In this document: positions 39,604 to 57,217 of the stretch, one piece after another
How positions within the stretch are numbered: the first letter of the stretch is position 1
Layout of the letters: each line of letters begins with the position of its first letter
Source of the DNA: Ferrimonas lipolytica
GTDB lineage: Bacteria > Pseudomonadota > Gammaproteobacteria > Enterobacterales > Shewanellaceae
Length of the DNA stretch: 64,000 nucleotides
Direction: 5' to 3'
Assembly: GCF_012295575.1 (NCBI RefSeq)
Contig: NZ_CP051180.1
Location: forward strand, 2,232,001 to 2,296,000
The notes under the pieces: model-generated
The model's input: the letters and a program-made list of their open reading frames with translations, nothing else
Told to the model about the DNA's origin: nothing
Database searches by the model: none
Program-made: the position numbers and the translations under genes

Positions 39604-41022
39604 TTAAACCTCAGTTTTCAGACAGTGATGTATTGGCTCTGGGAACAACAATGACAAATCCCGTTTGTTAATTTTAAACAAAGGGCCTTTTTCACTAACT
39701 TTATCGGTTTTACCTGAGCGCTTGATAAGGTGATCCATCGTGATCTTACCATCGATAATTAATGGAATTAGTTGAGTCAAGATAGGTGCTTTTGTATGGA
39801 CTAGCGAGCGTAGATGAAAATACTCAACTCCCTCTTCAAACCAGCTGTCAGCTTCAATCCAAAATGTCTCCGAGTGCTTTTCAAGCAATCGCTCCTCAAG
39901 CAACTTGCTAGGCCATGTCGCAACAGACTCGCCACTATTGTGAACTTCTTCAAGCCAATCGCAATCGTAATCATATTTGAAGTACAAACCCTGAGAGTTA
40001 GGCTTGGTTGCACTAACAGTACAATAGAGTTTGAAATCACCATTATCGCGGGTGTATCCATATCGTTCTAAAATTTCAGCGCTTCTCTTACATGTGCTTT
40101 TTCGCCAGTCAGCAACTTGGGCGAACAGAGTGGTTCTAGTTCTATTGCCTCGGCCAGACTTTAACTCAATACCTTTGTAATCTGGTTTTTTGCTCGAATT
40201 AGCCTCAATTCCTAAAAGTGACTCCAGCGTGTATCCAATTGCGGTATCACCTTTACGCTCTGCCTTGAACGGAGTCACTGCCAATTTTTTAAGTGCAGCC
40301 AAAAGCTCTTCAGCGACTCGGTTGTTTATAGATGTCCACGTTCGAAGGTGTTTGCCGACATGACTATGGTCAGATTTAAATTCACCCTCTAGGAAAGACT
40401 GGCTAAGGTTTAGAAGATAAGCGCAATCATCAATCACAATGATCGCGATAATATCCCCCGCCAGAGCAAACCCACCTAATTTTCTGAACCACATTCTTGG
40501 ATCCCCTTTTTTGGTTTTGGGGCGATACAAGCTAAGCTTAGAACTAATGCAGTTTTCCACACCTAACAACTGAGCTGATTTAATAACTTTGTGTTCTGAC
40601 CCCTGTTGCTGCTCAGAGTAATCATGAAACCCTTCGAGTCGAAAGTGAGATCGAACAGGGAAAGTTGCATCCAATATAGACTTTTTCAACCCTGTCACAG
40701 TCGGCTCAAATACTGAGTACTCAATAGCTAATTTGGTTAAGAAACGTTTATTGGCTTCGACGTGCTCATCATATTCTTGAGCTTCAGGCACAGCTATCGC
40801 AGCCTCATCTATAGGCACATATTTATGTGAGACTTCAGCAATCTGCCATGTTGATGAATCCTGCCTGTCATAATGTGACTTACATTCATACCAACTTGAA
40901 AAACCGTACGATTGGCTTAACTGCTCGTATGCTTGATGAAGTTCTATTCCTAGTATGTTTTTCAAAGATTTTGCTCGCTGTTTAAAGCGTTTCAATGAGG
41001 GCAGACTCTTATTTTTATTCAT
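39604..41022 (-). CDS. MvaI/BcnI-family type II restriction endonuclease
   Basis: 472 residues. The central motif GYTLESLLGIEANSSKKPDY with KGIELKSGRG gives a PD-(D/E)XK site at Asp281, Glu286 and Lys288, as in MvaI/BcnI enzymes, followed by RTRTTLFAQVADW. These enzymes cut CCWGG/CCSGG-type sites as monomers; the specificity here is not shown. An N-terminal extension (residues 1-60, KRFKQRAKSLKNILGIELHQ then AYEQLSQSYGFSSWYECKSH) is extra to the short classical enzymes and is a block shared with accessory proteins of plasmids and phages. Divergent from the methyltransferase, as expected of a restriction-modification pair. Confidence 0.83.
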   Translation of the reverse strand: MNKNKSLPSLKRFKQRAKSLKNILGIELHQAYEQLSQSYGFSSWYECKSHYDRQDSSTWQIAEVSHKYVPIDEAAIAVPEAQEYDEHVEANKRFLTKLAIEYSVFEPTVTGLKKSILDATFPVRSHFRLEGFHDYSEQQQGSEHKVIKSAQLLGVENCISSKLSLYRPKTKKGDPRMWFRKLGGFALAGDIIAIIVIDDCAYLLNLSQSFLEGEFKSDHSHVGKHLRTWTSINNRVAEELLAALKKLAVTPFKAERKGDTAIGYTLESLLGIEANSSKKPDYKGIELKSGRGNRTRTTLFAQVADWRKSTCKRSAEILERYGYTRDNGDFKLYCTVSATKPNSQGLYFKYDYDCDWLEEVHNSGESVATWPSKLLEERLLEKHSETFWIEADSWFEEGVEYFHLRSLVHTKAPILTQLIPLIIDGKITMDHLIKRSGKTDKVSEKGPLFKINKRDLSLLFPEPIHHCLKTEV

Positions 41023-43201: not shown

Positions 43202-44470
43202 TCACGTTAGCGAATCCAGCCCCTGAGCAGGTACAACATCAGCTTGTGCCTGCTTCTGCCCATCAACAATAGCGCCTGTCACCGAATCTAGTTCCGCTCG
43301 TACCTGCTCAAGCTGCAAATGAGCATAAGTGCTAGCTGTAATACTTATATCGCTGTGGCCAAGCAATTTGCTAGCCGCTTGTAAGCTGCCACCGCGCATG
43401 ACGTTCCAACTAGCGATGGTTCGCCGCAGATCGTGGATGGTAACGTTCTTACTGCGATCTGAGCTATAAAGCCCAGCACGATTAGATATACGATTCCAAA
43501 ATCCACTAGCCCCTGATTTATCTACCACATGGCCACTTTGCGTTTGCTGGGATGGAAAGACAAAGGTTTGCCCTGCTTCGGCCTGTTCACTGCGACGCTT
43601 TAAGATTTCCATAGCCTTATCAACTAACGGGACAGCATGAGGTCGCTTGGCTTTCATCTTGGTGGTTGGTATCAACCAAACAGCGTTAGCGTGGTCAACT
43701 TCCTGCCATTCCATACTAAATACACAACTTTTGCGTTGCCCAGTGAGCAGCAACATCATCACCACATCTTGATAGATCGCAGGCTCTTGCTCTAGTGAAG
43801 CCATTAGCGCCTGCATTTCATCTTGATTAAGGATTCGTTCACGCTTAATCGAGGCGACCTTTTTCACTTTCGCAAACGGATTCGCTTCACTTTCAGCAAA
43901 CATCGACTTCAAAATAGTCAAACACTTATTGTGAACGGAGGGAGTTCGCTCGATAAGAATCAGCTTAAGTAAATTATGCGCATAGGCTCTGTCTATATCA
44001 TTCGCTTGTAGGCGACCAACACGATGCTTTAGGTGAGTGTTCCAATTACTCTTAGAGTCTTTGAGCGACTTCTCTCGCCGTTCGCCGCTCTTAATCTTAA
44101 GTTCAAATTCGGCAACGTAGATATCGAACAGTTGCTGCATTGACAACGACAGCACCTTTGGGCGTTCAGCTTCAGCGAGCTGATGCCGCTTTACTTCATT
44201 AGGGTCAACCCCATCCATCACCTGTAATGCGAGCTGCTTGGCCTTCTTACGAGCGTTTTCAACGGAAAGTTGCGGAAACTGCCCTATCGTAACGTGCAGA
44301 TCTTTGCCATTTTGGCACCGTCGGTAGCGGTAATATTTTGATCCAGAAGGCATTACTTCAAGCACCAAGCCTGTAACCGACTCTCGATGCCCTTCATCTT
44401 TGATGCGAAAACGAGCCTTTCGCGGCAAGATCTGCTCCAAACTGCGCTTGGAGAAGGCGATTTCTGACAT
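43202..44470 (-). CDS. int: Tyrosine-recombinase integrase of the island
   Basis: 422 residues from the ATG at 44470 (GGAGG 10 bases upstream). N-terminal DUF4102-type arm-binding domain (KDEGHRESVTGLVLEVMPSG, then YRRCQNGKDLHVTIGQFP). The catalytic domain has LTGQRKSCVFSMEW (first Arg), HDLRRTIAS (His and second Arg), LLGHSDISIT and the Tyr in STYAHL. Family members integrate into tRNA genes; here it abuts attR. The stop TGA after GLDSLT is followed in frame by 21 more coding-like codons (EQKIALMAELGKQLSEGGVG) before TAA, so the tail may have been cut by mutation. Confidence 0.93.
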   Translation of the reverse strand: MSEIAFSKRSLEQILPRKARFRIKDEGHRESVTGLVLEVMPSGSKYYRYRRCQNGKDLHVTIGQFPQLSVENARKKAKQLALQVMDGVDPNEVKRHQLAEAERPKVLSLSMQQLFDIYVAEFELKIKSGERREKSLKDSKSNWNTHLKHRVGRLQANDIDRAYAHNLLKLILIERTPSVHNKCLTILKSMFAESEANPFAKVKKVASIKRERILNQDEMQALMASLEQEPAIYQDVVMMLLLTGQRKSCVFSMEWQEVDHANAVWLIPTTKMKAKRPHAVPLVDKAMEILKRRSEQAEAGQTFVFPSQQTQSGHVVDKSGASGFWNRISNRAGLYSSDRSKNVTIHDLRRTIASWNVMRGGSLQAASKLLGHSDISITASTYAHLQLEQVRAELDSVTGAIVDGQKQAQADVVPAQGLDSLT

Positions 44471-44643
44471 ATTTAGATGGCCTCCCTCTATTTCGGCACC
44501 GTATTTGTGCCGACTATGTGCCGACCTCGGCACACATCGAGGTTAAATTTAGACCATTCCCGTTAACGTCGCAATCAATTAACTATCTGTTATATAAACA
44601 GTAATTAGGTTGTGTTAATTACCGTTAATGTCAAAAAATGACT

Positions 44644-44658
44644 CCTATGGGGAGGCCA
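44644..44658 (+). repeat. att repeat, right
   Basis: CCTATGGGGAGGCCA, identical to the tRNA-Arg 3' end at 34228-34242; right end of the island. Confidence 0.9.
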
Positions 44659-44693
44659 ATTCTGCATATTCCCGTCAACAACTACCATTGTCG

Positions 44694-45404
44694 TTACGAC
44701 TGATGATAATCACGCTCTACTTTTTGCAAGCGCCCTAAGAAGCCATCAAGGTGTTGGCGCATTTCTCGCTCAGCCGCATCTGCATCGCCGTTGGCAATGG
44801 CATCAATAATACTTTGATGCAAACCGGCAGGATGGATCTTATCGGTATCCGGTTCAAACTGGGTCGCGATACTAAAGATCAGTTCGAGCAGCGACTTAGC
44901 AATCGCCCCTAACAAGCGGTTAGGGCAATGGTCGGCTAACAGTACATGAACCTTTTGACGCGCATGAACGGTCTCAGGGTATTCAATAATGTCTTCACCA
45001 TCAGCTGCCTGCTGCAAAGCTCGCACCAGTTCCGGAGTTGCAGTTTGAGCAGCCAACCGTGCGACCTGCGGCTCAATTAAGATTCGAGCATCATAGATCT
45101 CATCGAATGACATCTGCCCCAAGCGAAACAGATCATGGCAGGCAGAGCTAATGACGCCAAAGTTTAACGTCTGTACAAAGGCCCCACCGGTGGCCCCCTG
45201 CTTAATCCGCACTAAACCAGAAGCTTCTAATCCTTTAATCGCCTCGCGGATTACGGTTCTGCTAACTTGAAATTGTTCAATTAGCTCTCGCTCTGACGGC
45301 AACTTATCACCAGCTTTATAACGGCCATTGAAGATAACCTTACGCAGCTGTTCTAGCACCTCTTCAGATGCTCGCCTGTTGTTAATCGGTTTAAATCCAG
45401 TCAC
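44694..45404 (-). CDS. FadR/GntR-family regulator
   Basis: 236 residues from the GTG at 45404; the longer open frame lacks family similarity. GntR winged HTH: VLEQLRKVIFNGRYKAGDKL then PSERELIEQFQVSRTVIREA. The all-helical FCD effector domain (about 90-230) has DARILIEPQVARLAAQTA, DCPNRLL-like metal/ligand region (ADHCPNRLL) and HQSIIDAIANGDADAAEREM. FCD regulators commonly sense organic acids. Divergent from the flavoprotein reductase operon and probably its controller; TTGTTAACAA-type sites lie between. Confidence 0.85.
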   Translation of the reverse strand: MTGFKPINNRRASEEVLEQLRKVIFNGRYKAGDKLPSERELIEQFQVSRTVIREAIKGLEASGLVRIKQGATGGAFVQTLNFGVISSACHDLFRLGQMSFDEIYDARILIEPQVARLAAQTATPELVRALQQAADGEDIIEYPETVHARQKVHVLLADHCPNRLLGAIAKSLLELIFSIATQFEPDTDKIHPAGLHQSIIDAIANGDADAAEREMRQHLDGFLGRLQKVERDYHQS

Positions 45405-45468
45405 GGCTCTTATCTGTAATTCAGTTCTAACCGGCGAGTATACAACAATAAAAGGGCAGCAAACCCTA

Positions 45469-45478
45469 TTGTTAACAA
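45469..45478. promoter_or_regulatory. GntR-type operator candidate 1
   Basis: Perfect palindrome TTGTTAACAA, of the FadR-family form (T-N-G-T-N3-A-C-N-A), in the divergent region. Confidence 0.5.
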
Positions 45479-45611
45479 CACTAAGGTTGCCCCCTGCCGC
45501 TACTAATGAGCCATTTTGCTTGGATTTTTTATGCCACAAGCTCTCCGCCGCAAAAAAAGGCGACAATATTAAGGCGTCCCCAGCTCAAGTACTGGTTATA
45601 TAAACGTCGCA

Positions 45612-45625
45612 ATTGATCTACATCA
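45612..45625. promoter_or_regulatory. FNR box
   Basis: TTGATCTACATCAA is an exact match to the FNR consensus TTGAT-N4-ATCAA. It lies between the FadR-type regulator and the flavoprotein operon, predicting anaerobic control. Confidence 0.7.
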
Positions 45626-45765
45626 AAGATTGAGCATTCCAAGCGGCGACCATCCCTTCCTGGTTCCAATCAGAGTTCTTTCAATGCGGCCAAGTAAAAA
45701 AACAAAATACTGAAATGTAAGGATTTATTAAAATTTCAATTACGCTTGACGTGAACAACTTTCGA

Positions 45766-45775
45766 TTGTTAACAC
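45766..45775. promoter_or_regulatory. GntR-type operator candidate 2
   Basis: TTGTTAACAC, one change from candidate 1, closer to the flavoprotein gene. Confidence 0.45.
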
Positions 45776-46018
45776 CGTTTGCACGCTAATAATCACAGCA
45801 ACTTATCATTCGTGAGCCACTACGCGCATCCGTAACAAGCCCCTTTCTGCTCATACGTTATATGTCATACATTTAACGTATTGGGCGTGGCGCTGATTTT
45901 CTCATCATCAATTAGTCTGCTTCATGCCTGTTAACCCAAGAAAACCAGAGATGTTTTTAGCCTCTATGTCTGCCACTGAGGATTTCAGTGGCAGCGGCGA
46001 AAGCAAAAGGAGTAAATA

Positions 46019-47686
46019 ATGAGTAACAAAAAATCTCAGGAACAACAGGCTGTTGATCAGTACACTGCCAGTGTCCTGCAAAATGGTATCTCCCGCCGTA
46101 GCTTCCTATCTCGCGCTGCACTTGGTACTGGTGCTGTCGCTGTAGGTGGCATTAGCGCCACTGCACAAGCGGCACCTGCCACCGCAGTTGAAGTGGCTAA
46201 TATTGGCGGCGCTAGCTTGGGCTTCTTGCCTAAGCCACAAACAATTTTAGATTCCCAAATCGCATCGACCAAGACCTTCGACGTCGTGGTTGTAGGTGCG
46301 GGTGCATCTGGTGTTCCTGCAGCTCTTTCGGCACATGAAAATGGTGCCAAAGTTGCGGTACTGCAAAAGCAATCCATCATCGTGTCCCAAGGGAATACCG
46401 GTTCTGGCCTCGACTTAAAGAAAAGCGACAAAGCCGGTGTTGAAGCGTTGGTTAACCGTTTAATGGCCGACAGCGCACACCGCTGCAGCCCAGAACTGCT
46501 GCGTGAATGGGCTTACAACTCTGGTGAAGCGGTTTCCTGGGTTATTGACCGTACCAAGAAAGGCGGCGGCCAAATCGTTGACCAAGGTACCGGCCCACAG
46601 CATGGTATCCACGGTATTACCGAATACCCGTTGAACTTTGTAACCTCCTACTGCGGCCCTAAGCCATACACCACCGGTGACGGCATGCGCGATCTGGGTA
46701 AGTACGCAGCCAAGCAAGGGGTAGAGTTCTTCTTCCAAACACCAGCACAGCAATTGATTCAAGATGCTTCCGGTCGAGTTATTGGCGTTATCGCGCGCGA
46801 TGCCGAGGGCAAATATCACAAATTCATGGCTAACAAAGGCGTGATCCTGGCCTCTGGTGACTACCAGAACAACAAAGCAATGTGTGATTTCTTCATTCCA
46901 GACCTGAAGAACTTTGAGCGCAAGCAAATGGATCGTACCGGCGATGGTTTTTCCATGGCGTACTGGGCAGGTGGTGTAATTGAGCCGGTTGGCCATACCA
47001 AGATGCTGCACGACTTTGATGCAGGCCCTGCATCCATGTGTGACATGCCTTTCCTAGCGGTTAACCGCAGTGGTGAGCGTTTCGTGAACGAAACCGTAGC
47101 CATGTCATTGATGAACAACTACCTGCGTGATGAGCACAATGCCGGCCATTACTCACAGGTGTTTGACTCTAACTACATGGAACAAGCCAAAGACTGGCCA
47201 GGTCGCCTCTACTCTCCGGAGGAGATGCGCAAATACATGCCGGACGATCCGACCCCGAAAAAAGGCGTTTACGCTTCGCAAACCAACACCCATGTTGCCG
47301 ATACGCTCGAAGAGTTGGCTGAAAAACTAGAGTGTGATCCGAAGACTTTTGTCGCCAACGTTAAGCGCTACAACGAGCTGTGTAAAACCGGTAAGGATGA
47401 CGATTTCGGCAAGCCTAAATCGAAGATGGCGCCGGTACTGAAGCCACCGTTCTACGGCATCCACCGCCGCATGCGTATCTCTACCTTGTGTTCCGGCATG
47501 CTGGTTAATAAAAACCACCAGGCGATCAACTCTGAAGGTGAGCTAATCGATGGCTTGTTTGTTATCGGCAACATGGCCGCGGGTTTCTACGGCGGTGTGG
47601 ATTACCCACTGACGGTATTCGGTCTATCACTAGGCCGCTGTTACACCTTCGGTTACTTGGCTGGTAAATACGTCGCCAAGCTGTAA
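46019..47686 (+). CDS. Tat-exported FAD-dependent reductase, fumarate-reductase-like
   Basis: 555 residues, AAAGGAG before the ATG. Tat signal SRRSFLSRAALGTGAVAVGG (25-44), so it is folded and cofactor-loaded before export. FAD-binding Rossmann start FDVVVVGAGASGVPAALSAH (GAGASG 93-98), glycine-rich second FAD region VSQGNTGSGLDLKK, C-terminal FAD contact GLFVIGNMAAGFYGGVDYPL. It belongs to the FrdA/KstD-like flavoprotein family used for periplasmic reduction of unsaturated acids (fumarate, urocanate, methacrylate). The HTMGG active-site motif of true fumarate reductases is replaced by STLCSGM, so the substrate is probably different. It lacks its own heme domain; the next gene supplies one. 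Confidence 0.85.
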   Translation: MSNKKSQEQQAVDQYTASVLQNGISRRSFLSRAALGTGAVAVGGISATAQAAPATAVEVANIGGASLGFLPKPQTILDSQIASTKTFDVVVVGAGASGVPAALSAHENGAKVAVLQKQSIIVSQGNTGSGLDLKKSDKAGVEALVNRLMADSAHRCSPELLREWAYNSGEAVSWVIDRTKKGGGQIVDQGTGPQHGIHGITEYPLNFVTSYCGPKPYTTGDGMRDLGKYAAKQGVEFFFQTPAQQLIQDASGRVIGVIARDAEGKYHKFMANKGVILASGDYQNNKAMCDFFIPDLKNFERKQMDRTGDGFSMAYWAGGVIEPVGHTKMLHDFDAGPASMCDMPFLAVNRSGERFVNETVAMSLMNNYLRDEHNAGHYSQVFDSNYMEQAKDWPGRLYSPEEMRKYMPDDPTPKKGVYASQTNTHVADTLEELAEKLECDPKTFVANVKRYNELCKTGKDDDFGKPKSKMAPVLKPPFYGIHRRMRISTLCSGMLVNKNHQAINSEGELIDGLFVIGNMAAGFYGGVDYPLTVFGLSLGRCYTFGYLAGKYVAKL

Positions 47687-47702
47687 TAAACCGGCCAGTA
47701 GC

Positions 47703-47720
47703 GGACGGGCGAGACCGTCC
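47703..47720 (+). other. Intercistronic stem-loop
   Basis: GGACGG-GCGAGA-CCGTCC between the reductase and tetraheme genes; no T-run, so probably message processing rather than termination. Confidence 0.45.
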
Positions 47721-47758
47721 ACTTCATCTCCGGCTAGTTGTCTTTAAGGGATAAAACA

Positions 47759-48121
47759 ATGAACAAATTTAAACTGCACAATCTGGTGCTCTCTATTGCG
47801 CTATGTGTGTGCGCAAACCAAGCAGTGGCGGCTGATGCCAGCTTACTTGATGAAACCCATGCCACCATGGGCATGACATGTGTTGACTGTCATGGTGAGG
47901 CAGATCGTCAACCTGTTGTCACTGCCAAGTGTACCGAGTGTCACGATGTAGCCGACTTGGCTGAAGCCACTGCCGTTACCCCAAGCGTAACTGCAACTAA
48001 TCCGCACGACCATCGCCACAATGGTACCGCCACCAACTGTAACGCTTGCCATAACGTGCACAAGCCATCAGTCAATGTGTGCGGTGATTGCCACTTACGC
48101 TTCGAACTTGTGGTGCCTTAG
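47759..48121 (+). CDS. Periplasmic tetraheme cytochrome c
   Basis: 120 residues; AAGGGA precedes the ATG. Signal peptide (LHNLVLSIALCVCANQAVAA) then four CXXCH sites at residues 41, 58, 94 and 108 (CVDCH, CTECH, CNACH, CGDCH) plus extra His for bis-His ligation. Size and spacing resemble the heme domain of Shewanella flavocytochrome c. In the same order as the FAD reductase it is the likely electron donor, as in two-gene methacrylate-type reductase systems; electrons would come from a menaquinol oxidase such as CymA, not in this window. Confidence 0.88.
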   Translation: MNKFKLHNLVLSIALCVCANQAVAADASLLDETHATMGMTCVDCHGEADRQPVVTAKCTECHDVADLAEATAVTPSVTATNPHDHRHNGTATNCNACHNVHKPSVNVCGDCHLRFELVVP

Positions 48122-48142
48122 CCACAACTCAAGTAACACCTC

Positions 48143-48178
48143 TGCCATTACGGAGCACTCTTCTTGCCCGTAATGGCA
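48143..48178 (+). other. Intercistronic stem-loop before the porin gene
   Basis: Perfect 11-bp arms TGCCATTACGG / CCGTAATGGCA with 14-base loop and no T-run. Possibly stabilises the upstream message or tunes porin expression. Confidence 0.5.
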
Positions 48179-48250
48179 ACCTACCAATGTTAAGACTAAT
48201 TGATGGTGTTTAGCTGCACTAGGGCACCGTCATGCCTAAAGGATTTAGAT

Positions 48251-49489
48251 ATGAACAAGACCATTATTTCGGCTCTGGTGATGAGTGCCCTTACTGCCCC
48301 AGCCTTTGCCGCTGATTCAGTTAGCAACATATTTTCCGATGGTTCATTAAAGGGACAATTTCAGTTATTCGACTTCCAGCGCGACTTTGATGGCGAAACA
48401 ACCGATCGTCGTGACACCTCATTTGGTGGCCTGTTTTACTACCGCTCAGGCGAGGCCGAAGGCATCAGCTTTGGTGGTGCTTTTGCATCTGCCAACCCTA
48501 TCTGGGAAAACAGCGATGCCGTTTACGGGTTAGTGGCCGGACCGGTAGGACAACAAGGCGATCGAGAGGCGGTAAACCGTTTACAAGAGTACTTTGTTAG
48601 CGGCAACTGGTTTGACACCAAGGTAACCGTTGGTGCTCAAGAGCTATTCACACCAATGATGAGCATCTTCCCATTACGCGCCATTCCGTTTACCTATCGG
48701 GGTGCGAGCATCAAAAACACCTCCGTCGATAATTTAGCCATCACCGGCTTATATATCGAAGACTACATGGGGTGGACCAATGACGAATTTGCGGATTTAG
48801 CAGATGGTGTTGCCGGTGAGTTTGCTCGTAAAGGCGTTATGGTCGACGTTGAAGACAGCCCAATGTACGGACTCGGGCTCGATTACACCATTCCAACTGA
48901 TGTGGTTAAAGCCAAGACCAGCCTATGGTTCTACACCATGGACGACGTTTATGAGCAGTACCATATCAAGCTGAACTTAAGCGGTGATATTGGTGACGTT
49001 AACTGGTACTTCAAACCTTCATACCTCAAGCAAGACTCTACCGGTAAGCTCGATCAAACCGCTGCTAGCTTCGACACCTACCAAGCTGGTTTCCACCTAG
49101 GTATGAAATGGCAAGGCTTTGATGCCACCGTAAAATACGTTCAAACCGGCGATGATGATGTTCTTACTCCGTTTGGCGATGAGAAGGTAATCATTCAACA
49201 GGTTATCCAATCCGCTCGCGCAGACGAAGATGCTTACGGAGCGCAGTTGGCTTACCGCTTTGCTCCTAACACCGCCTTAGACGGCGTTAGTGCTTACGTA
49301 AACTATGCCAAATATGAGATAGATAACGCTCAAGACGACATTGACGAAACTGACTTCTCTGTTCGCTACAACATGAACAAGTGGGTCGATGGCCTAAGTG
49401 TAAGAGCGCGTTACGCCATTGTTAACCAGGACAGCGGTGACGACCTGACCGATATGCGCTTCTACGTTTATTACAAGTTCGCTATCTAA
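48251..49489 (+). CDS. OprD-like outer-membrane porin
   Basis: 412 residues from the ATG at 48251 (AAAGGA upstream). Signal peptide NKTIISALVMSALTAPAFAA. Sequence of alternating beta strands starting SLKGQFQLFDFQRDF and ending in MRFYVYYKFAI. The pattern (LKG..R.F..., GGLFYYRSG, YEQYHIKLN) fits OprD-type substrate-specific porins. Third gene of the reductase operon, so it probably admits the organic-acid acceptor. A terminator follows. Confidence 0.8.
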   Translation: MNKTIISALVMSALTAPAFAADSVSNIFSDGSLKGQFQLFDFQRDFDGETTDRRDTSFGGLFYYRSGEAEGISFGGAFASANPIWENSDAVYGLVAGPVGQQGDREAVNRLQEYFVSGNWFDTKVTVGAQELFTPMMSIFPLRAIPFTYRGASIKNTSVDNLAITGLYIEDYMGWTNDEFADLADGVAGEFARKGVMVDVEDSPMYGLGLDYTIPTDVVKAKTSLWFYTMDDVYEQYHIKLNLSGDIGDVNWYFKPSYLKQDSTGKLDQTAASFDTYQAGFHLGMKWQGFDATVKYVQTGDDDVLTPFGDEKVIIQQVIQSARADEDAYGAQLAYRFAPNTALDGVSAYVNYAKYEIDNAQDDIDETDFSVRYNMNKWVDGLSVRARYAIVNQDSGDDLTDMRFYVYYKFAI

Positions 49490-49543
49490 GCTTTACCTGT
49501 TATCAATCTGCCTAACTTTAACAAGCGGTATTGAATCAAATAA

Positions 49544-49569
49544 AAAGGGCTGCCATTTGGCAGCCCTTT
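49544..49569 (+). terminator. Terminator of the reductase operon
   Basis: AAAGGGCTGCCA / TGGCAGCCCTTT with TT loop, followed by ATTAT. Confidence 0.82.
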
Positions 49570-49923
49570 ATTATCAACATTAATGTCGTACCACTGTGAT
49601 GCTTCACTAACCTATTAGTGGCTTAATACCGCTATCAATTGAACGCTAAACAACGTTAATTTTGTCATTTGAGTGCTAAATGCCTATCGATAAAATCGAA
49701 TTGATAAAGCGATTGCTCAGAGTAAAAAAGGTTATCCGGGTAAAATATCCCCTTAAAACGCCTCAATTCCCCATACCCAATAGTAAGTATGCGTGATGCT
49801 CTTCTAGGTTCATCCAACACTATGAGTAGCTACACTGAAAACCTATTTTGACCTTACTAGCATGGCCAAGACTCAAATGAGTCGACCATGTCTAAGATAA
49901 GACAAGATAAGGATTTTTTAACG
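49570..49923. other. Upstream region of chromosomal tetraheme lipoprotein
   Basis: About 350 bases with no gene. No FNR box or strong promoter consensus seen; AAGGA at 49909 is the ribosome site. Confidence 0.5.
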
Positions 49924-52074
49924 ATGATGAACAAGAATTCAAGCATTGGACGCCTGAGCAAGCCAGCACTCGCGTTAATGCTGCTGCCGCTTTTGAACGC
50001 CTGTGGAAGCGACTCAGATAATAAAGAGACCCCAGTGGTGCCAGAGGTACCAGTAGTGCCAGTGGAGCCAGAAACACCGGAAATCCCAGGAATTGCTGAC
50101 TTACCAGCTGAACTAGCTGCAAAATTTGACCTTCTTGTTGAAGCGCCAAAAAGTGAGTTCGACGGCACTATGGATATTTACCTAGGTCGTTGGTACCCAT
50201 GTCAAACAGCACACTTAAACATGTGTGATGAAGAAGCTGCTGCTAAAGACAGCTATACAATCAAAGCGGTTGGCGAAGAAGGTTTCGAAGGCAACACTAA
50301 GTACAACCTGAATACTCCAGATAACAGCAAGTACCACATGGAGATTAATGCTGAAGCATTACTTGCATGGAAAAGTGAGTCTATTCGTAGTGATATCTTC
50401 CAACCGGGTCACTTTTCTGTTTTAGACGTCATGATGTATATTTCAGAGCAACGTGAGGACTTTGAAGTTTCTGATGTTGTCTGGAACGAAGCGCGTCAAG
50501 CTTACGATTACAAGGTATCTTTCGATGCTGATGGTGATGGTAACTTCGACACTGACGAAGCGACGCATTATACCCAGTGGAAAGATTACAATAAGAGCCC
50601 GAACTGGGGTGTTTCTTTCTTCCATAGTGGTGGCAAAATGCTAAGCGAAGCCGCTTCTTTTGAAACCGTTTATGACCGTCTAGGGGAAATGCTGGTTCGT
50701 CACCAAGTAGAAATTCGTATCATGCCAATGAGCCCTGCTTACATGGAGCGCATGTGGCAATCTCATATCGATGAAGTTGAATTCAAAAAAGCCAATGACG
50801 GCAAAGTAATGCTGACTAACGTCCTGATCGATATGGAAGATACCGATGGCTATAAAGACGAGCATATTATACCGGTCGCGACAAACGTTGAAGTAAAGGC
50901 GTATAACTTACGTACTGATGTCTTCAAGCCAGGCGTAATTACTCAGCTTGATTATATTATGTCTGCTGCAGCAGCATCTGCGACTACTGGCGAAGCTGAC
51001 TTTGGCTTCACTTACTGGCCGACATTATCTACTGGCACTCAGTTGGGCAGCTATGTAATGAACCGGATTGATCATCCTGAAACCGGTCATAAAATTGGTG
51101 CTGGTGGTCTTCGTGCTGACGGCTTTGATGGCTGGAACTATGCAGCAGGTATGGATGAATATACCTTAGATGTCATGCTTCACAGCCAAGGCTCTGTAAC
51201 AGCAGCGCAATTTGTTGCAGATGCTGGCGGAGAGAACTTTGCTCAAGAATGTGAGTGGCTTCGTGAAGATGATGGCAGCATCACTGAAGTAAAAGCACAA
51301 GAATGTATTGACCATTGGTCTGGTACCTTCGGTGGTAACAAGCTTCACATTGCGATGGATCAAATGGTCCGTAACCATGGTATGAACTACATCTACTTCT
51401 CTTGGGTTAAGAAGATGTTCTGGCTTTATGGTGCAACTGAACTGAACTCCGTAAACCAAGACCGTGTTAATGGCAATGAGTACCTTTTCCCAACTCCAGT
51501 ACGCGAAGCTGTAGTAATTGCTGACATCAGCAAAGCAGTTGCGCCACTTTCTGACACCCACTTTGGTTGGGGTATTGCGGATTGTGCACAGTGTCACAAT
51601 GAACAGAAAGATCCGTTAGGTCATGGTGGTTCTTCGTGGCCATTAGCTTCTGGAACTGAAGTTACCGAGATCCAGCCATTCCATTGTGCATCATGTCACG
51701 GCAATAACGGCGCAATGGAAGGCCATGGCGAAACATCTCGTTGTTTCTGGTGTCACTCTGAAGATTATCTGATGAAGAACCATGGCGATGCGTCTACATG
51801 GGTTGATTTCAGCACGGTTGAATGTGGTGAAGAATCTAACCCGAGTCCGTATTGGAACGCAGAAGCATATGGTCCTATAACAGTAGGTGGCATGGGCTCA
51901 TGTTCTGATAACAGAAGCTTCAAATTTGCTAACAAGGAGCTGTGGGATGGCTCTACCTATAAAGACCAACCAGCAGGGGTTACACGCACTGTTGGTAACA
52001 GCGATTGGCACACCTCTGATACGTTCCCAGACACATACAGCTGTGTAACTTGTCACGTTAACCCTAAAAAATAA
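49924..52074 (+). CDS. Large lipoprotein with C-terminal tetraheme cytochrome domain (chromosomal copy)
   Basis: 716 residues from the ATG at 49924; an ATG at 49888 would add a charged 12-residue leader before the signal peptide. Lipobox LLNA-C. A Pro/Val/Glu linker (PVVPEVPVVPVEPETPEIP) follows the anchor. The unrecognised central domain has a Ca-loop-like DADGDGNFDTDE and the duplicated motif IRSDIFQPGHFSVLDVMMYI / LRTDVFKPGVITQLDYIMS. Hemes: CAQCH 554, CASCH 588, CFWCH 607, CVTCH 707. HFGWGIADCAQCHNEQKDPL parallels HFGWKIADCSQCHNDEKNSL of the island copy. Followed by its own LuxR-type regulator. Function unknown; probably anaerobic electron transfer in the cell envelope. Confidence 0.85.
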   Translation: MMNKNSSIGRLSKPALALMLLPLLNACGSDSDNKETPVVPEVPVVPVEPETPEIPGIADLPAELAAKFDLLVEAPKSEFDGTMDIYLGRWYPCQTAHLNMCDEEAAAKDSYTIKAVGEEGFEGNTKYNLNTPDNSKYHMEINAEALLAWKSESIRSDIFQPGHFSVLDVMMYISEQREDFEVSDVVWNEARQAYDYKVSFDADGDGNFDTDEATHYTQWKDYNKSPNWGVSFFHSGGKMLSEAASFETVYDRLGEMLVRHQVEIRIMPMSPAYMERMWQSHIDEVEFKKANDGKVMLTNVLIDMEDTDGYKDEHIIPVATNVEVKAYNLRTDVFKPGVITQLDYIMSAAAASATTGEADFGFTYWPTLSTGTQLGSYVMNRIDHPETGHKIGAGGLRADGFDGWNYAAGMDEYTLDVMLHSQGSVTAAQFVADAGGENFAQECEWLREDDGSITEVKAQECIDHWSGTFGGNKLHIAMDQMVRNHGMNYIYFSWVKKMFWLYGATELNSVNQDRVNGNEYLFPTPVREAVVIADISKAVAPLSDTHFGWGIADCAQCHNEQKDPLGHGGSSWPLASGTEVTEIQPFHCASCHGNNGAMEGHGETSRCFWCHSEDYLMKNHGDASTWVDFSTVECGEESNPSPYWNAEAYGPITVGGMGSCSDNRSFKFANKELWDGSTYKDQPAGVTRTVGNSDWHTSDTFPDTYSCVTCHVNPKK

Positions 52075-52105
52075 TCGCCGAATAATAATCAATTAATTGA
52101 TTTAT

Positions 52106-52140
52106 AGAGGCCCTAGCGAGCTAATTGCTGGGGCCTTTTA
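52106..52140 (+). terminator. Terminator after tetraheme lipoprotein
   Basis: AGGCCC / GGGCCT stem with inner AGC/GCT pairs and TTTTA tail. Confidence 0.7.
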
Positions 52141-52443
52141 ATCTAGACTATCGACAAACTATTGCCCTAACAGGGCTTGCTCCCCAAAAGTGTGTAACAT
52201 GCTACATACAATAGGAAATGGCACAATTTTTGTGAGCAAGAACACAAATACCCCCCACCACCACTACAAATGATTTTCCGTTCAAGCCTACTTATTCACT
52301 TAATTCAACCAAACTAAATAATTGATGAATTTGCTTAGGTGGTAGCAATCCCACTTTCAATATTTTGCCGTTGCTGCGGCTAATTAATGTATTTAACCTT
52401 AACTCTATCTTTAGAGGTAGTTGAGGCTATTTGAGTAATAACT
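52141..52443. other. Upstream region of LuxR-type regulator
   Basis: About 300 bases, AT-rich, no gene or clear operator. Confidence 0.5.
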
Positions 52444-53226
52444 ATGGACCGTAATAACACGATCGAATTCGAAGAAGATAATCCATCAATTAACCGAGAG
52501 GAAATTGAACAAGCGCTATCTGACTTCGCATCAGCAAACGGCCTTACTGATCTATTTTATTGCTACGATATTTGCGCCAACACTGAAATTAATCAAAACG
52601 ACGATCCCGATAAACTCTGTAACCGATTTAAGAAGCGTGCTCGGATATTTTTTAGTTCAGAAAATGGCCGCGACTATTTTAAAACGGTGATCATCGGCTA
52701 TGTACTCAAAGACCGACATCTACGCGCCAAATTTGAAAAGAAACTGTTCCAACGTAACTATGTCCGCGAGTGCGTTTGCGCTTACGATAAACTGGCTGGC
52801 GGAGCAAGTAAGACAGAGGAGCTGCACGAGAATTTTGGGTACCAAAAGAAGTTTGAATTGGTTATGCCCTGCCCTCGCAATAGTCACTTCTTCGCCCGCT
52901 TTATTATCATGACCAGTAACCATGATATGGATGAAGCTGGTGTACTGCGTGAGTTAAAGCCAAAGCTAGTCGAACTGCATAAAGATTTTGCCAATCAATA
53001 TATTAGCAGTATCAACCCAGTTATCGATTATCAGTACATCAAGGCAAACTCGTTACGTGTATTAGAAAGCCTAGCCAAGGGGCTCAGCCGCAAAGAGGCC
53101 GCTGAGAAACTCTACTTAACAGTACGTGGTATCGACTACCATATCGAACTAATGAAAACCGCTTTAGCGGCTCCTAACATTCCCAATGCGATCTACAAAG
53201 CCTGTGCGTTGAGCTTAATAAGATAG
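52444..53226 (+). CDS. LuxR-type HTH regulator (chromosomal copy)
   Basis: 260 residues. C-terminal LuxR HTH about 198-256: LRVLESLAKGLSRKEAAEKL then YLTVRGIDYHIELMKTAL. The N-terminal 190 residues have the size of an autoinducer-binding-like domain but only weak similarity. Same position, behind a tetraheme lipoprotein, and same layout as the island regulator at 34659; the HTH and last residues (Y/L-I-Y-K-A) are similar while the sensor halves are strongly diverged, suggesting different signals. Confidence 0.75.
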   Translation: MDRNNTIEFEEDNPSINREEIEQALSDFASANGLTDLFYCYDICANTEINQNDDPDKLCNRFKKRARIFFSSENGRDYFKTVIIGYVLKDRHLRAKFEKKLFQRNYVRECVCAYDKLAGGASKTEELHENFGYQKKFELVMPCPRNSHFFARFIIMTSNHDMDEAGVLRELKPKLVELHKDFANQYISSINPVIDYQYIKANSLRVLESLAKGLSRKEAAEKLYLTVRGIDYHIELMKTALAAPNIPNAIYKACALSLIR

Positions 53227-53234
53227 TATTGCTT

Positions 53235-53262
53235 AATCACCTCAGTAACTCACTGAGGTGAT
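53235..53262. terminator. Terminator hairpin between convergent regulators
   Basis: AATCACCTCAGT / ACTGAGGTGATT with 5-base loop, just past the LuxR gene. Confidence 0.72.
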
Positions 53263-53319
53263 TAATAAAACGGCTATTGCAACGACGACCAAGCAACAGC
53301 AATCTCTGCCAACGAATGG

Positions 53320-54267
53320 CTACTCCGGCCACTCGTGCTCTGCCAGCACTCCACTATTAATCAGCTTTAACCTGATAAAACTAACCTGCTCCTTAAGTCG
53401 GTCGCGGATAAGGCGAATAGCCGGTGAGATCATCTGTCGGCTCGGCAATACCAGCCACAACTCCGTACGCGGAATGGTGTAATCGGTCATAAACCGTTGG
53501 ACTCGTCCCGCCAGCAGGTCCTCTGCAACATCAATGGCTGACTTCTTAGCGATCCCCGCCCCATCAATACACCAGCGCCGAACCAAATCGCCATCATTAC
53601 CGGCACGATTACTGCGCATCTTTACCTTATAGGTTTTGCCTGCACGGGTCACAACCCACTGGTCATTTATCACTTTATAGAGTTTATACAACAGCGCATT
53701 GTGCTCACCGAGCTCGGTGGGGTTGGTGGGCACACCATGTTCGGCGATATATTGCGGTGAGGCACACAACACATGGGGGATATTGCAGATCTTAAATCCA
53801 TAGAAGTTGGATTCCTCGGCCGCGCCCTGCGCCATCGCTCGCAACGCCACATCCACCCCATCACGATAGAAATCCACCTGACTGTCACCGACATGAAAAC
53901 GGATGGCTAACTCTTGGTGTGCTGCCATTACCTCGTTCAACAGGCGCCGCATAAGGTGGCGACCCATTTCCGATGACATCGCCATACGTACCTCACCATT
54001 TATTGCTTGAGGGTCATCATTGAGTGCCTTTTGCCCCTGTTTCAATAAGTCCAGTGCCTGTTGGCAAATGGGCAAATATTGTTCACCAGCGGCGGATAAT
54101 CGCAGTTGTCGTGTGGTCCGCACAAACAACTCTGCTCCCAACTCTTTCTCAATCCGCTTTAACGCAATGCTGGCGGCAGAAGAGCTCATATCTAAATGGT
54201 TGGCTGCTGCCGTAATCGATTGATGCTCTGCAATTTTTAGTACCACATTAAGATCAGTTGTATTCAT
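53320..54267 (-). CDS. LysR-family regulator
   Basis: 315 residues from the ATG at 54267 (AAGAGAG upstream); eight earlier codons are open. HTH: VVLKIAEHQSITAAANHLDM then SSSAASIALKRIEKELGAEL. Substrate domain about 90-300. It belongs to the CrgA/AaeR-like subgroup by its conserved C-terminal pattern (IDGAGIAKKSAIDVAEDLLA, then LVLPSRQMISPAIR). Divergent from the DUF4437 gene and probably its regulator. Confidence 0.85.
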   Translation of the reverse strand: MNTTDLNVVLKIAEHQSITAAANHLDMSSSAASIALKRIEKELGAELFVRTTRQLRLSAAGEQYLPICQQALDLLKQGQKALNDDPQAINGEVRMAMSSEMGRHLMRRLLNEVMAAHQELAIRFHVGDSQVDFYRDGVDVALRAMAQGAAEESNFYGFKICNIPHVLCASPQYIAEHGVPTNPTELGEHNALLYKLYKVINDQWVVTRAGKTYKVKMRSNRAGNDGDLVRRWCIDGAGIAKKSAIDVAEDLLAGRVQRFMTDYTIPRTELWLVLPSRQMISPAIRLIRDRLKEQVSFIRLKLINSGVLAEHEWPE

Positions 54268-54572
54268 CGGCTCTCTTGGTTGTTGTGCCAATCTGCGGCG
54301 TCTACTGAGGCTTTTTGTTATTATCCACGATTTCGCGAAAGTATCTTAAAGATTACCCCGTTTATCGAATTAATCTACTCTAATAAAATGCGTAGCAACA
54401 CTGCCCAGTAGCAATTTGATTCAACCAGCCACAACAGGAATGGTCGGCAACCATGAGTTCATTTAGTTAGCCCAACTGAGGTTCAGCTAGATCAACTTGC
54501 CCGAATCAATGCCAATGCTGAGCCGAACGAACATAGACTCTCTTTGATTTTAGTTATTACGGAATGCCCATC
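54268..54572. other. Divergent region between LysR and DUF4437 genes
   Basis: About 300 bases. No LysR box pair could be fixed by eye. Confidence 0.4.
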
Positions 54573-55376
54573 ATGCGTACATTAAAACTGACCGCTATCG
54601 CTGCTCTATTTACAACACTAGCTTTGCCAGCCATCGCTGCCGATCACACCGTTATCTCTACCGATAACATCGACTGGGGCATGCTCAACCCTGCCCGTGG
54701 CGACGCGAGCCCGAAAGCCGCTGATCTATGGGGCGATCGCACCAAAGATATGGCTACTGGCATGCTGGTGAAGTTTCAAAAAGGGTTCTCTTCACCACCA
54801 CACATTCACAACATCAGTTACCGCGGTGTGGTAATTGAAGGGTTGATGCACAACGACGACAAACACGCTGACAAAATGTGGCTACCAAGTGGCTCTTTCT
54901 GGACTCAACCTGCTGGTGAAAGCCACATCACCGCCGCCAATGGCGAAGACAACCTAATCTACCTAGAGATCGACAGTGGTCCCTACTTGGTGCAACCAGA
55001 AGAGCATGCATTTGATAACGGCGAACGCCCAATCAACGTTGATGAAAGCAACGTATTTTGGCTGAATGTGAATGACGCCACCTGGCTGGACTCTGGTCAT
55101 GCACAAATCGCATACCTATGGGGCGCACCGGAAGCGGCAAATGGCAGCTTTGTAAAACTGCCTGCCGGTTTCAACGGCAGCATCGGCAATGCCAAAGGCT
55201 TAAAAGCGGTGGTGGTAAAAGGGACGGCAAGCTACCGTTGGAATGAGGAAAAAGCGCTAACCAAGCTAACACCAAGCAGCTTTTTTAGCTCAGATACACA
55301 AGGCCAACACATTATTAAAACCGAATCCGAAGTGGTGCTGTACGTGAAGTCCAACGGCCAGTTCAGTGTGAAATAG
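54573..55376 (+). CDS. Exported DUF4437 cupin protein
   Basis: 267 residues from the ATG at 54573 (GGA 9 bases upstream; an ATG at 54564 has no room). Signal peptide RTLKLTAIAALFTTLALPAI then AA. Two cupin-like halves. The first holds KFQKGFSSPPHIHNISYRGV, with His ligands, and MWLPSGSFWTQPAGESHITA. The second is LWGAPEAANGSFVKLPAGF. The PARGDASPKAADLWGDR start is typical of DUF4437. Probably a periplasmic metal-binding or small-molecule-binding cupin; reaction unknown. Confidence 0.82.
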   Translation: MRTLKLTAIAALFTTLALPAIAADHTVISTDNIDWGMLNPARGDASPKAADLWGDRTKDMATGMLVKFQKGFSSPPHIHNISYRGVVIEGLMHNDDKHADKMWLPSGSFWTQPAGESHITAANGEDNLIYLEIDSGPYLVQPEEHAFDNGERPINVDESNVFWLNVNDATWLDSGHAQIAYLWGAPEAANGSFVKLPAGFNGSIGNAKGLKAVVVKGTASYRWNEEKALTKLTPSSFFSSDTQGQHIIKTESEVVLYVKSNGQFSVK

Positions 55377-55391
55377 GCAGTCGATAAACAC

Positions 55392-55424
55392 AAAAAGCGG
55401 CAAGTTAAGCACTTGCCGCTTTTT
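55392..55424. terminator. Terminator between DUF4437 and rhodanese genes
   Basis: AAAAAGCGGCAAGT / ACTTGCCGCTTTTT with 5-base loop; bidirectional, serving both convergent genes. Confidence 0.92.
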
Positions 55425-55425
55425 A

Positions 55426-55480
55426 GGCTGTAATGCCAACCAACTAACGGTATCTATCCAATACTGTTAAACGATTAGGC
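55426..55480 (+). mobile_element. MITE family 1, degenerate left-end fragment
   Basis: GGCTGTAATGCCAACCAACT, then TATCCAATACTGTTAAACGA follows the left end of the repeat (GGCTGTGTACCAACTAAG, CCAATGCTGTTAAAGCACC). About 55 bp remain. It starts directly after the T-run of the terminator. Confidence 0.6.
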
Positions 55481-55489
55481 TATCAGGCG

Positions 55490-56641
55490 TTATTGACCAA
55501 CGGTGTAGCTGCCATCTGCAGCGTAACTGATGCTGCTGTCGAGGTATTGTACTTTGGCCTTGTTGGCGTAGTTTGTTTCGGCCTGAATGGTAGCGTAAGC
55601 ACCACCGGCTCGAGCGCCACTGGCACAAACCAATACCACCCGACCACTGGCTGGTAATTTAGCCAAGGCTGCTTCAGATTTGTAGATGAAGTCCTCATCG
55701 AATACATGCACCGCACCAGGCAAATGCCCAGCAGCGTATTCCTCTGCAGTACGTACATCAACAATGGTAACGTTACCGGCAGCCATCAATTGAGTCAGCT
55801 CTGCAGGCTCAATTGTTTCAGCAAGACCGGTTTTAGCCGTTTGCATACCAGCAGAGCCTTGACTGCCCCACATCGGTAAACCCGCTTGTTTCCATTCAGG
55901 TGAGCCAGCCGCGTATACCGACACCTTGGAGTAACCTTCGTCGATGGCCATCTTGGCACTCTGATGGCTTAGCTGGCAGTGATAGCCTCCACAGTAAAAC
56001 ACCACCATGGTCGACTTATCACCAGGAAGGAGATGTTTTTTACGGGGGAACTCTGCCTTTGGCAACGATACCGCCCCTGGAATGAAGGCTTGTTGAAATT
56101 TCATCGCTGGGCGTGAGTCAACTAACACAAACGGTTTGTTGCTGGTTTGCAGCTTTTGTAAACCCTTGGTCTCAATGATGCTGTAATTACCCGCTTGAGC
56201 CCAACCCGGACTGCCTTCGTACCATACTTTTACTTTGCTGAAACCATTGGCCATTGCCATCTTTGCTGCCGCTGGGCTAAGTGGACAGTTCAAACCGCCA
56301 CAGTAAAACACCAAAGTCTTATCTTTTGGCAATGTTGCTAGTTGTTGCTGCATCTTCGCTTTGGGGATGCTAATTGCTCCGGGAACATGACCAGCCAAGA
56401 ACTTGGTGGCTGGGCGCGAGTCGATAAGCACGTAATTGTCCGCATCTGCACCAGCTAAAATGTTCATCACTTCAGCTGTAGTAAGGCGTAAAGCTGGGTC
56501 TTGAGGTACAGCGCTTTTGAGCGCATGCGAAGATTGATCTTGAGCTACGGCAGCGGAGTCAGTCACGGTAGTGGTGCTGCAACCCGCAGTTAACGCCACT
56601 GCCAAGCTTACAGCGGCTAAACGGCCAAAGTGTTTCATCAT
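55490..56641 (-). CDS. Lipoprotein with three rhodanese domains
   Basis: 383 residues. Signal peptide with lipobox LTAG-C. Three rhodanese domains: about 50-150 (DNYVLIDSRPATKFLAGHVP, active-site FYCGGLNCPLS), 155-260 (PFVLVDSRPAMKFQQAFIPG, FYCGGYHCQLS) and 275-375 (VTIVDVRTAEEYAAGHLPGA, VLVCASGARAGGAY). All three retain a Cys at the loop start; the first two carry a second Cys (CGGxxC) that could form a disulfide. An envelope-anchored sulfur or persulfide handling protein; partners not visible. Confidence 0.88.
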   Translation of the reverse strand: MMKHFGRLAAVSLAVALTAGCSTTTVTDSAAVAQDQSSHALKSAVPQDPALRLTTAEVMNILAGADADNYVLIDSRPATKFLAGHVPGAISIPKAKMQQQLATLPKDKTLVFYCGGLNCPLSPAAAKMAMANGFSKVKVWYEGSPGWAQAGNYSIIETKGLQKLQTSNKPFVLVDSRPAMKFQQAFIPGAVSLPKAEFPRKKHLLPGDKSTMVVFYCGGYHCQLSHQSAKMAIDEGYSKVSVYAAGSPEWKQAGLPMWGSQGSAGMQTAKTGLAETIEPAELTQLMAAGNVTIVDVRTAEEYAAGHLPGAVHVFDEDFIYKSEAALAKLPASGRVVLVCASGARAGGAYATIQAETNYANKAKVQYLDSSISYAADGSYTVGQ

Positions 56642-56881
56642 TCATCCTTCATTATTACTTTATTGTCTTATGACGCGTCGAACGCCACAACATTAGCGAC
56701 AACTAAATTAAACGAGGCAAATGTAAGACGCTGAGAGGTACAGCACACCACAATAAGATTCAGCGTTTTTTACTGCTCAAAAAACATAAAAAAGTCTAAA
56801 AAAATTATCGCCGCAACGATTAATTATTGACAATGCATCACGCTGTAAGTCTCCTCACTTGAAACAACAGCGCTATATATG

Positions 56882-57172
56882 GGCTGTGTACCAATTAAGT
56901 GTTGCTCTTACCAAGGCTGTTAAAGCACTGGCTAGGCGAATCGCGATACAAGGGTAAAGCACTACCGCTATTGATCTTCTGCCGCATTGGAGCAGTTCAG
57001 CGAAGCGTTTTGGACTGCGACCTAAGGCAAAGGAGGATTCCAAAGGGGGCGAAGCTCCCACCCAATGCATACAACAATGTGCCGTCGCCACCGCGACATA
57101 GTCCCCTAAAAGCGCCGAAATCGGTGAAGCCGAAGGCTTAAGATAAACTTCAACAGCTAACTACGACACAGC
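56882..57172 (+). mobile_element. MITE family 1, copy 5 (intact reference copy)
   Basis: 291 bp from GGCTGTGTACCAATTAAGTG to GCTAACTACGACACAGC, inverted ends of about 23 bp with mismatches. Flanked by the 10-bp duplication GCTATATATG (56872-56881 and 57173-57182). No coding capacity; the open frames through it are repeat artefacts. Confidence 0.88.
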
Positions 57173-57217
57173 GCTATATATGTAGCGTCATATGGCATTA
57201 GCCACACCTACATTTTA

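Follow-up and report, generated by a model that had tools for sequence, protein, structure and literature searches.

Among the closest described systems are the LuxR solos, regulators of the LuxR type without a partner LuxI, and in the available parts of a survey devoted to them (PMC10134790) solos with exogenous N-acyl homoserine lactone (AHL) ligands are known, a single solo, Pandoraea LuxR3, is tabulated beside a cytochrome c oxidase gene, and the words Ferrimonas and Shewanella are absent from the main text. Regulators described as LuxR also occur at two reductive loci: in the parts available of the respective papers, the rdhA2 cluster of Desulfoluna is flanked by LuxR and MarR regulators (PMC7031245), and the Eggerthella cgr locus includes Cgr1, Cgr2 and the putative LuxR-type protein Cac3 (PMC5953540). 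The subject here is a gene pair of Ferrimonas lipolytica, consisting of a tetraheme lipoprotein gene and a neighboring gene for a LuxR-solo-type regulator, which lies at positions 49924–53226 of a 64,000-nucleotide stretch of contig NZ_CP051180.1 (hereafter the window) and is accompanied there by a second such pair. Each pair is read as a dedicated anaerobic-respiration module that would serve a particular electron acceptor under the control of its own LuxR solo, the solo binding a chemical other than an AHL; this reading is given a little better than an even chance. The pairing is undescribed in the titles and abstract openings returned from the open-licence PubMed Central literature (for one topic the best 15 of 566), and the word LuxR does not occur in 10.7554/eLife.50845.

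Pairing of lipoprotein and regulator genes

The pair that gives the study its starting point, copy B, is encoded on the forward strand and comprises the lipoprotein gene at 49924–52074 (716 aa, lipobox LNACG; the open reading frame (ORF) is open from 49888, with 49924 the likely start) and the regulator gene at 52444–53226 (260 aa, with the sensor at approximately aa 14–190 and the helix-turn-helix (HTH) domain at approximately aa 192–260). Copy A lies on the reverse strand, with a lipoprotein of 729 aa at 35569–37758 and a LuxR-HTH regulator of 253 aa at 34659–35420. The order of lipoprotein followed by LuxR-HTH gene on a shared strand is the same in both copies, as the initial annotation had proposed, and its description of divergent sensor halves is borne out as well: the lipoproteins are 28% identical from end to end (BLASTP 214 bits, E 7e-64), and the regulators can be aligned only over their C-terminal 72 residues (32%, E 8e-12), so that the sensor halves are divergent. 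A simple recent duplication of A to give B is ruled out by the 28% lipoprotein identity together with separate branches in the lipoprotein tree, in which copy B forms a long branch of unsure placement.

The statement that the module occurs twice holds for the window; the whole genome (4.13 Mb, one contig) contains 12 pairs, in which the gene order differs from pair to pair. In total the genome encodes 13 full-length lipoprotein paralogues and one ORF of 178 aa having the haem part alone, and each of its 12 clear regulators is located 27–627 bp from a lipoprotein gene; two further weak regulator matches lie elsewhere (E 0.3 and E 7.2e-4). The thirteenth lipoprotein gene is arranged tail to tail with a paired one. 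The 178-aa ORF (locus L044, 8168–8704) has no regulator nearby and may be a remnant or a stand-alone carrier.

The neighborhood survey by which constant pairing could have been refuted comes out in its favor. Among 14 genomes of the genus, seven contain the lipoprotein, with 62 merged matches including fragments, and a regulator is found within 2.5 kb of 58 of these. Three of the four unpaired matches are each the second gene of a doublet and have the regulator at 2.77–2.78 kb, and the fourth is the 178-aa ORF. In an eighth genome (G394) the lipoprotein profile A3 gives a match with E 7e-7 that covers only positions 2–63, the leader region, and the count is kept at seven of 14. Four of the seven lipoprotein-free genomes yield no regulator match, and three yield one each (E 4.8e-15, 8.4e-6 and 2.3e-4). 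A wider set of Ferrimonas and Shewanella loci, drawn partly from the same genomes as the genus set, comprises at least 20 matched loci, 17 of them with a full-length lipoprotein relative; in 16 of the 17 full-length loci listed the regulator is within 332 bp of the lipoprotein gene, and in the remaining one, L047, it is at 2.8 kb. Three further loci among the matches listed show similarity around the haem part only, and in one of these, L062, the small tetraheme gene adjoins a flavoprotein relative. One relative carries four lipoprotein-regulator pairs as a tandem array (L084, 5587–17032). Profile A3 applied to 68 genomes gives no match in the 54 outside the genus, although members do exist in Shewanella; as these genomes were a sample, with scoring limited to 18 candidates in each, no absence is implied. 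An order-wide search of 394 genomes scored three candidates in each, and no absence is drawn from it either.

The two partners have diverged in a correlated manner. Pairwise distances between lipoproteins and those between their regulators correlate with r 0.26, a value as high being reached in 0 of 2000 permutations with near-identical orthologues kept in, a comparison thus not free of phylogenetic effects, and the nearest neighbor agrees between the partners in 19 of 49 pairs. Within the regulators the mean pairwise identity is approximately 16% in the sensor part versus 37% in the HTH part. These figures are consistent with the earlier suggestion that the sensors may respond to different inducers.

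Predicted sensor fold and ligand-contact positions of the regulators

Membership of the regulators in the LuxR-HTH family is indicated by the GerE profile (PF00196), which matches copy A above cut-off (27.3 bits versus 23.5) and copy B below it (19.5 bits), and which gives a match in every one of 21 regulators at a threshold of E 1, the best with E 7.3e-14. The predicted model of regulator B (pLDDT 80.5) superimposes on HTH structures with Z above 12 at approximately 1 Å. Foldseek matches the same model to full-length QscR, RhlR, SdiA and TraR, with a best E of 5.3e-8 for QscR. In VIA the comparison with full-length QscR gives Z 12.8 over 198 residues at a root mean square deviation of 9.7 Å, which probably reflects a different setting of the two domains, and that with the LasR ligand-binding domain alone gives Z 11.1 over 141 residues at 4.1 Å. 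The own-genome regulator profile is aligned with SdiA by hhalign over 128 residues. Regulator B is thus predicted to have the autoinducer-binding-domain fold, which supports the proposal in the initial annotation that the module has its own signal receptor. The 12 own regulators include four short ones of 182–196 aa, which start inside the sensor as aligned.

The contact residues that receptors of this fold use for AHLs are given, in the available part of PMC10134790, as W57, Y61, D70, P71, W85 and G113 in TraR numbering. In an alignment of SdiA with 51 regulators of 230–299 aa, taken from 68 distinct ones and uncertain in this diverged region, W is found at the W57 position in 0 of the 51, Y at the Y61 position in one and P at the P71 position in 11. 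At the positions of W57, Y61, D70 and W85 regulator B has D, T, D and F, and regulator A has N, S, K and W. The motif WxxxYx8D, present in SdiA, occurs in none of the 68 distinct regulators. As aligned, therefore, the W57 and Y61 contacts characteristic of quorum-sensing LuxR receptors appear to be lost. The autoinducer-binding profile PF03472 has no own-genome match at E up to 0.1, the control being positive in three of 14 genomes and above cut-off in one. The earlier claim that no luxI is present agrees with a best PF00765 match of 14.6 bits in the own genome, against a cut-off of 24, in a search that gave no positive among the 14 control genomes.

Because the W57 and Y61 positions are changed and neither a PF03472 match nor a LuxI above cut-off is found, a link to AHL quorum sensing is unsupported, and the regulators, which by predicted fold are LuxR solos (an AHL-receptor-like sensor and an HTH domain without LuxI), are read as solos for a ligand of another kind. 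The same fold could also belong to solos that eavesdrop on foreign AHLs and thereby turn on cytochromes of the cell surface where mixed communities are dense. Such a role would accord with the likeness of the regulator B model to QscR, SdiA and LasR, with the D70- and W85-type positions, which are largely kept, and with the precedent of solos having exogenous AHL ligands; it is nevertheless considered unlikely, given the altered contacts, the missing motif and profile match, and a sensor variety that seems more than a handful of AHLs would call for.

Lipoprotein architecture and respiratory neighborhood

Of the 62 family ORFs of at least 450 aa in the fetched loci, 57 of which are distinct, 58 carry a lipobox, and in 51 the cysteine is followed by G. 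Lipoproteins are sorted to the outer membrane according to the residue after the lipobox cysteine, and a G at this position fits such sorting. Near the C-terminus of copy B four CXXCH haem motifs are evident from the sequence within 51583–52056 on the forward strand (51583–51597, 51685–51699, 51742–51756 and 52042–52056), and their cysteines and histidines are invariant in the 13 own paralogues and in 23 relatives. The region preceding the haem motifs is repeated, unit 1 aligning with unit 2 at an hhalign E of 2.2e-8 over 35 columns; the units are placed at 50281–50673 and 50791–51183 on the same strand, limits that are approximate and derive from the predicted model together with hhalign. Among the paired lipoproteins the N-terminal parts have a mean identity of 30% and the haem parts 44%.

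No Pfam or NCBIfam family scores above cut-off in either window lipoprotein, Cytochrome_C7 being the nearest. FAD_binding_2, the FAD domain of the flavocytochromes c, is absent from the window copies, the 23 A3 members and a set of 10 lipoproteins. Neither window lipoprotein matches TIGR03507, the profile of the OmcA/MtrC decaheme family. The window does contain a decaheme lipoprotein of that family at 13174–15525 (TIGR03507, 304.8 bits), with a gene upstream of it labelled LysR-like from its sequence. Directly upstream of copy B, at 46019–49489, a flavoprotein (FAD_binding_2), a small tetraheme protein and an OprD-type porin are encoded in a row and form a separate respiratory cluster. Dockerin_1 is matched in six of the 23 relatives (best E 6.9e-7), probably reflecting calcium-binding-type loops. 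The best hit of the lipoprotein profile in a PDB sequence search, at E 0.048, is the haem-motif stretch of a cytochrome.

Residues 55–490 of the AlphaFold lipoprotein model are mostly of good quality. The closest structures to the N-terminal half of this model in VIA-align 2 are the beta domains of intrinsic factor, haptocorrin and transcobalamin, with Z up to 8.4 over 109 residues at 2.9 Å, and repeat unit 2 falls in the region concerned; the next rows have Z 4.5, and a Z of about 8 is, according to the tool's own note, the level of common arrangements. Foldseek finds no match with E under 0.001 for the lipoprotein model and places other proteins on top, at E 0.077 and above. Membership in DUF4430 (PF14478) was rejected, since none of the 14 genus genomes has a match above cut-off, none is placed on the lipoproteins, and only two of the 23 relatives are matched weakly (best E 0.021). 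The resemblance of the N-terminal half to the transcobalamin beta domain is weak and is treated as a lead.

The neighbors of the wider regulator family also point to respiration. The genus gives 76 strong regulator matches, of which 55 are situated by a lipoprotein and 10 have a reductive dehalogenase within 4 kb, while the other 11 are by neither. Six of these 11 are 1.3–3.0 kb from decaheme OmcA/MtrC-like proteins or flavoproteins, one adjoins an RdhC-like gene at a contig end, and the locus of another, L095, holds genes of the decaheme or flavoprotein kind too, with the regulator ORF uncalled there. Considered from the other side, 10 of the 16 reductive dehalogenases in the 14 genomes have such a regulator within 4 kb, and reductive dehalogenases are present in five of the seven lipoprotein-bearing genomes versus none of the other seven (Fisher p 0.021, uncorrected for relatedness). 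The own reductive dehalogenase is approximately 7.5 kb from one lipoprotein gene. Its locus (L128, 9524–17684) also includes RdhC-like, ABC-transporter, binding-protein and decaheme genes, labels that are partly our own reading; in Shewanella benthica and Shewanella sp. TC10 lipoproteins are accompanied by relatives of the ABC-transporter genes, and in the former also by relatives of the binding-protein and decaheme genes. At L075 (5282–6689) two regulators of the family are encoded in tandem, followed by a LysR-like gene and a decaheme OmcA/MtrC-family lipoprotein.

Reductive dehalogenases are a class of cobalamin enzymes. Instead of being a reductase, the lipoprotein might bind a ligand, cobalamin-like or otherwise, at the cell surface and use its tetraheme part to reduce or release that ligand, in modules that support cobalamin-dependent organohalide respiration. 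In favor of this are the transcobalamin-type structural neighbors, the weak DUF4430 matches, the reductive dehalogenases flanked by regulators of the same family and an own lipoprotein gene that adjoins a TonB receptor, an ABC ATPase, a FecCD permease and a Peripla_BP_2 protein, for which a role in cobalamin uptake is our own reading. This explanation is assigned a low probability, because the Z value reaches only the level of common arrangements, neither Foldseek nor the DUF4430 cut-off bears it out, and two of the seven lipoprotein-bearing genomes are without a reductive dehalogenase. A third alternative is that the lipoproteins are no more than paralogous cytochromes of the cell surface that reduce metals or shuttles, and that the cue for their regulators is redox state or anaerobiosis in general and not a specific chemical. 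It is likewise improbable, since, although the genus carries MtrCAB (available part of PMC8805035) and weak MtrC/MtrF domain II/IV matches are found in 14 of the 23 relatives (best E 0.0032), the copies have four haem motifs and not ten, the decaheme profile misses the two in the window, and a common cue would not need sensor parts so much more varied than the HTH parts.

Spread, meaning and relation to known systems

Copy A is cargo of a 10.4-kb integrative island at a tRNA-Arg gene. The tRNA-Arg (CCT) gene lies at 34167–34242 on the forward strand, and its last 15 bases (34228–34242) constitute one att repeat, of which an exact copy occurs at 44644–44658 on the forward strand, just past a tyrosine integrase gene (43202–44533, reverse strand; Phage_integrase, Arm-DNA-bind_3). 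The remaining cargo includes, by profile match, an MvaI/BcnI-family restriction endonuclease (39604–41022, reverse strand) and a C-5 cytosine DNA methylase (41405–43003, forward strand). The gene upstream of the site (32973–34088), which we take to be FlgT-like, is followed by tRNA-Arg in seven relatives as well, and the island genes of the window are unmatched there among the first nine ORFs per locus. The exact 15-base core occurs once in the nearest of the seven and in none of the other six, so the empty-site comparison is informative mainly at the nearest. No flanking direct repeats of at least 15 bases are found for copy B between 44500–49900 and 53200–57000.

The earlier description of the unit as transferable therefore applies directly to copy A, and transfer on a wider scale is suggested by the lipoprotein tree. 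In this tree of 57 lipoproteins, built by a quick method and containing long branches, the 13 own rows need nine label changes, at least seven of them forced on starred branches; the average for shuffled labels is 11.8, indicating some clustering too. The upstream gene is 43–62% identical to its counterparts in the seven lipoprotein-free genomes and 35–37% identical to those in the six other lipoprotein-bearing ones, and this grouping of the own genome with lipoprotein-free genomes, by a single gene, is a hint that many copies may have been acquired. One lipoprotein gene shows 86% DNA identity between Shewanella and Ferrimonas in a match that ends at the gene, and a second lipoprotein gene nearby shows 72%. 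Two lipoprotein genes of one genome (L100, 4342–6369, and L101, 4908–6935) are 95% identical in a match that runs on for only about 50 bases past the gene; their identity to the Shewanella one is 86%. A repeat of approximately 290 bases is present, whole or in part, at 56883–57175, 31375–31674, 3408–3623, 11111–11374, 7844–8080 and 1138–1241 of the window, 73–90% identical to the copies at L034; it is also found around other own-genome loci, once between lipoprotein and regulator (L034, 10172–10474). As a carrier of the copies it was dropped, since it occurs elsewhere in the window too.

In the favored reading, that of an acceptor-specific respiratory module, the lipoprotein would probably be anchored in the outer membrane and would join the repeated N-terminal region to a C-terminal tetraheme domain for electron transfer, with the role of a terminal reductase, or of the part of one that binds the substrate and delivers electrons. 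The regulator, with a sensor of the AHL-receptor fold minus key lactone contacts, would probably bind some other small molecule, for which the electron acceptor itself or a related compound is the simplest candidate, and in its ligand-bound form would control the neighboring gene. Computation supports the pairing, the domain composition, the predicted fold, the correlated divergence of the partners, their spread across genomes and the position of copy A in an island; where the lipoprotein resides, its role as the reductase, direct control by the regulator and the nature of the ligand are inferred.

Several observations weigh against this reading. The regulator is downstream on the same strand in 26 of the 58 pairs in the genus, upstream on the same strand in 24, divergent in six and convergent in two, and in copy B a strong stem resembling an intrinsic terminator (52106–52138, forward strand; −24.1 kcal/mol, z −4.95, followed by TTTT) separates the lipoprotein gene from the regulator gene, which therefore probably has its own promoter; adjacency may thus reflect joint inheritance more than co-transcription. 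The term two-gene unit, used in the initial annotation, is accordingly too strict, as is also indicated by one case in which the strongest inter-genus DNA match is confined to a lipoprotein gene. No common operator is found in 14 upstream regions by palindromes and 9-mers (the L099 region being placed approximately), the nearest neighbor differs between the partners in 30 of 49 pairs, and lipoprotein B is nearest to L045 while regulator B is nearest to L056. Apart from haem, no catalytic cofactor is recognizable in the lipoprotein by Pfam and NCBIfam scans of the window copies and 23 relatives, and the tetraheme half of the model is poor, mostly with pLDDT under 50. On the side of the regulator, the wider profile A4 aligns with SdiA in the HTH only, three of the 11 regulators away from lipoproteins and dehalogenases (L082, L089 and L090) have no respiratory neighbor by the profiles used, and the D70 position is D in 34 of 51 and the W85 position aromatic in 45 of 51, conservation that leaves room for AHL-like ligands.

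Should the module reading be correct, the LuxR receptor fold, known mainly from cell-to-cell signaling, would have been recruited in Ferrimonas and some Shewanella as a sensor of respiratory substrates, a dozen or more times over in some genomes. With every sensor tied to a single reductase-like gene, screening the pairs for inducers would then lead directly to electron acceptors so far unknown in marine sediment bacteria, organohalides perhaps among them, and would provide a function for a haem lipoprotein family that is unnamed in the libraries used. A more far-reaching version, doubtful as a whole, is that tetraheme lipoproteins of the outer membrane, a family not described before and equipped with transcobalamin-like beta-grasp domains for substrate binding, constitute an expandable set of acceptor-specific terminal reductases at the cell surface, each switched on by its own LuxR solo re-tuned from AHLs to the acceptor, for example halogenated or aromatic sediment compounds, so that a quorum-sensing fold would have become a general sensor of respiratory substrates.

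Among known systems, the regulators resemble the LuxR solos (QscR, SdiA and plant-signal solos such as OryR) in combining the AHL-receptor fold and a LuxR HTH domain without LuxI, and plant-associated solos have lost residues of the W57/Y61 type as the regulators here appear to have; the regulators here differ in that a dozen divergent copies occur in one genome, each beside a tetraheme lipoprotein or, in relatives, near a reductive dehalogenase. The lipoproteins share with the decaheme outer-membrane cytochromes OmcA and MtrC a lipoprotein nature, multiple haems, the same genera and weak domain II/IV matches, and are distinguished from them by four haem motifs instead of ten, an N-terminal half of no recognized relation, the missing TIGR03507 match and a dedicated regulator. 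Like the reductive dehalogenase cluster of Desulfoluna rdhA2, the pairs place a respiratory gene near a regulator, a resemblance that extends to the description of the latter as LuxR only; the protein here, however, is a haem lipoprotein without reductive-dehalogenase signatures. The Eggerthella cgr locus, again compared by description, is similarly a reductive system for a specific substrate, in which a multihaem protein has a LuxR-type regulator close by, but it belongs to a phylum different from that of the Ferrimonas pairs, and its enzyme is a flavin enzyme, unlike the lipoproteins. Finally, the second N-terminal domain of the lipoprotein bears a weak resemblance to the transcobalamin beta domain and DUF4430 in its predicted arrangement, although not a member of either by sequence.

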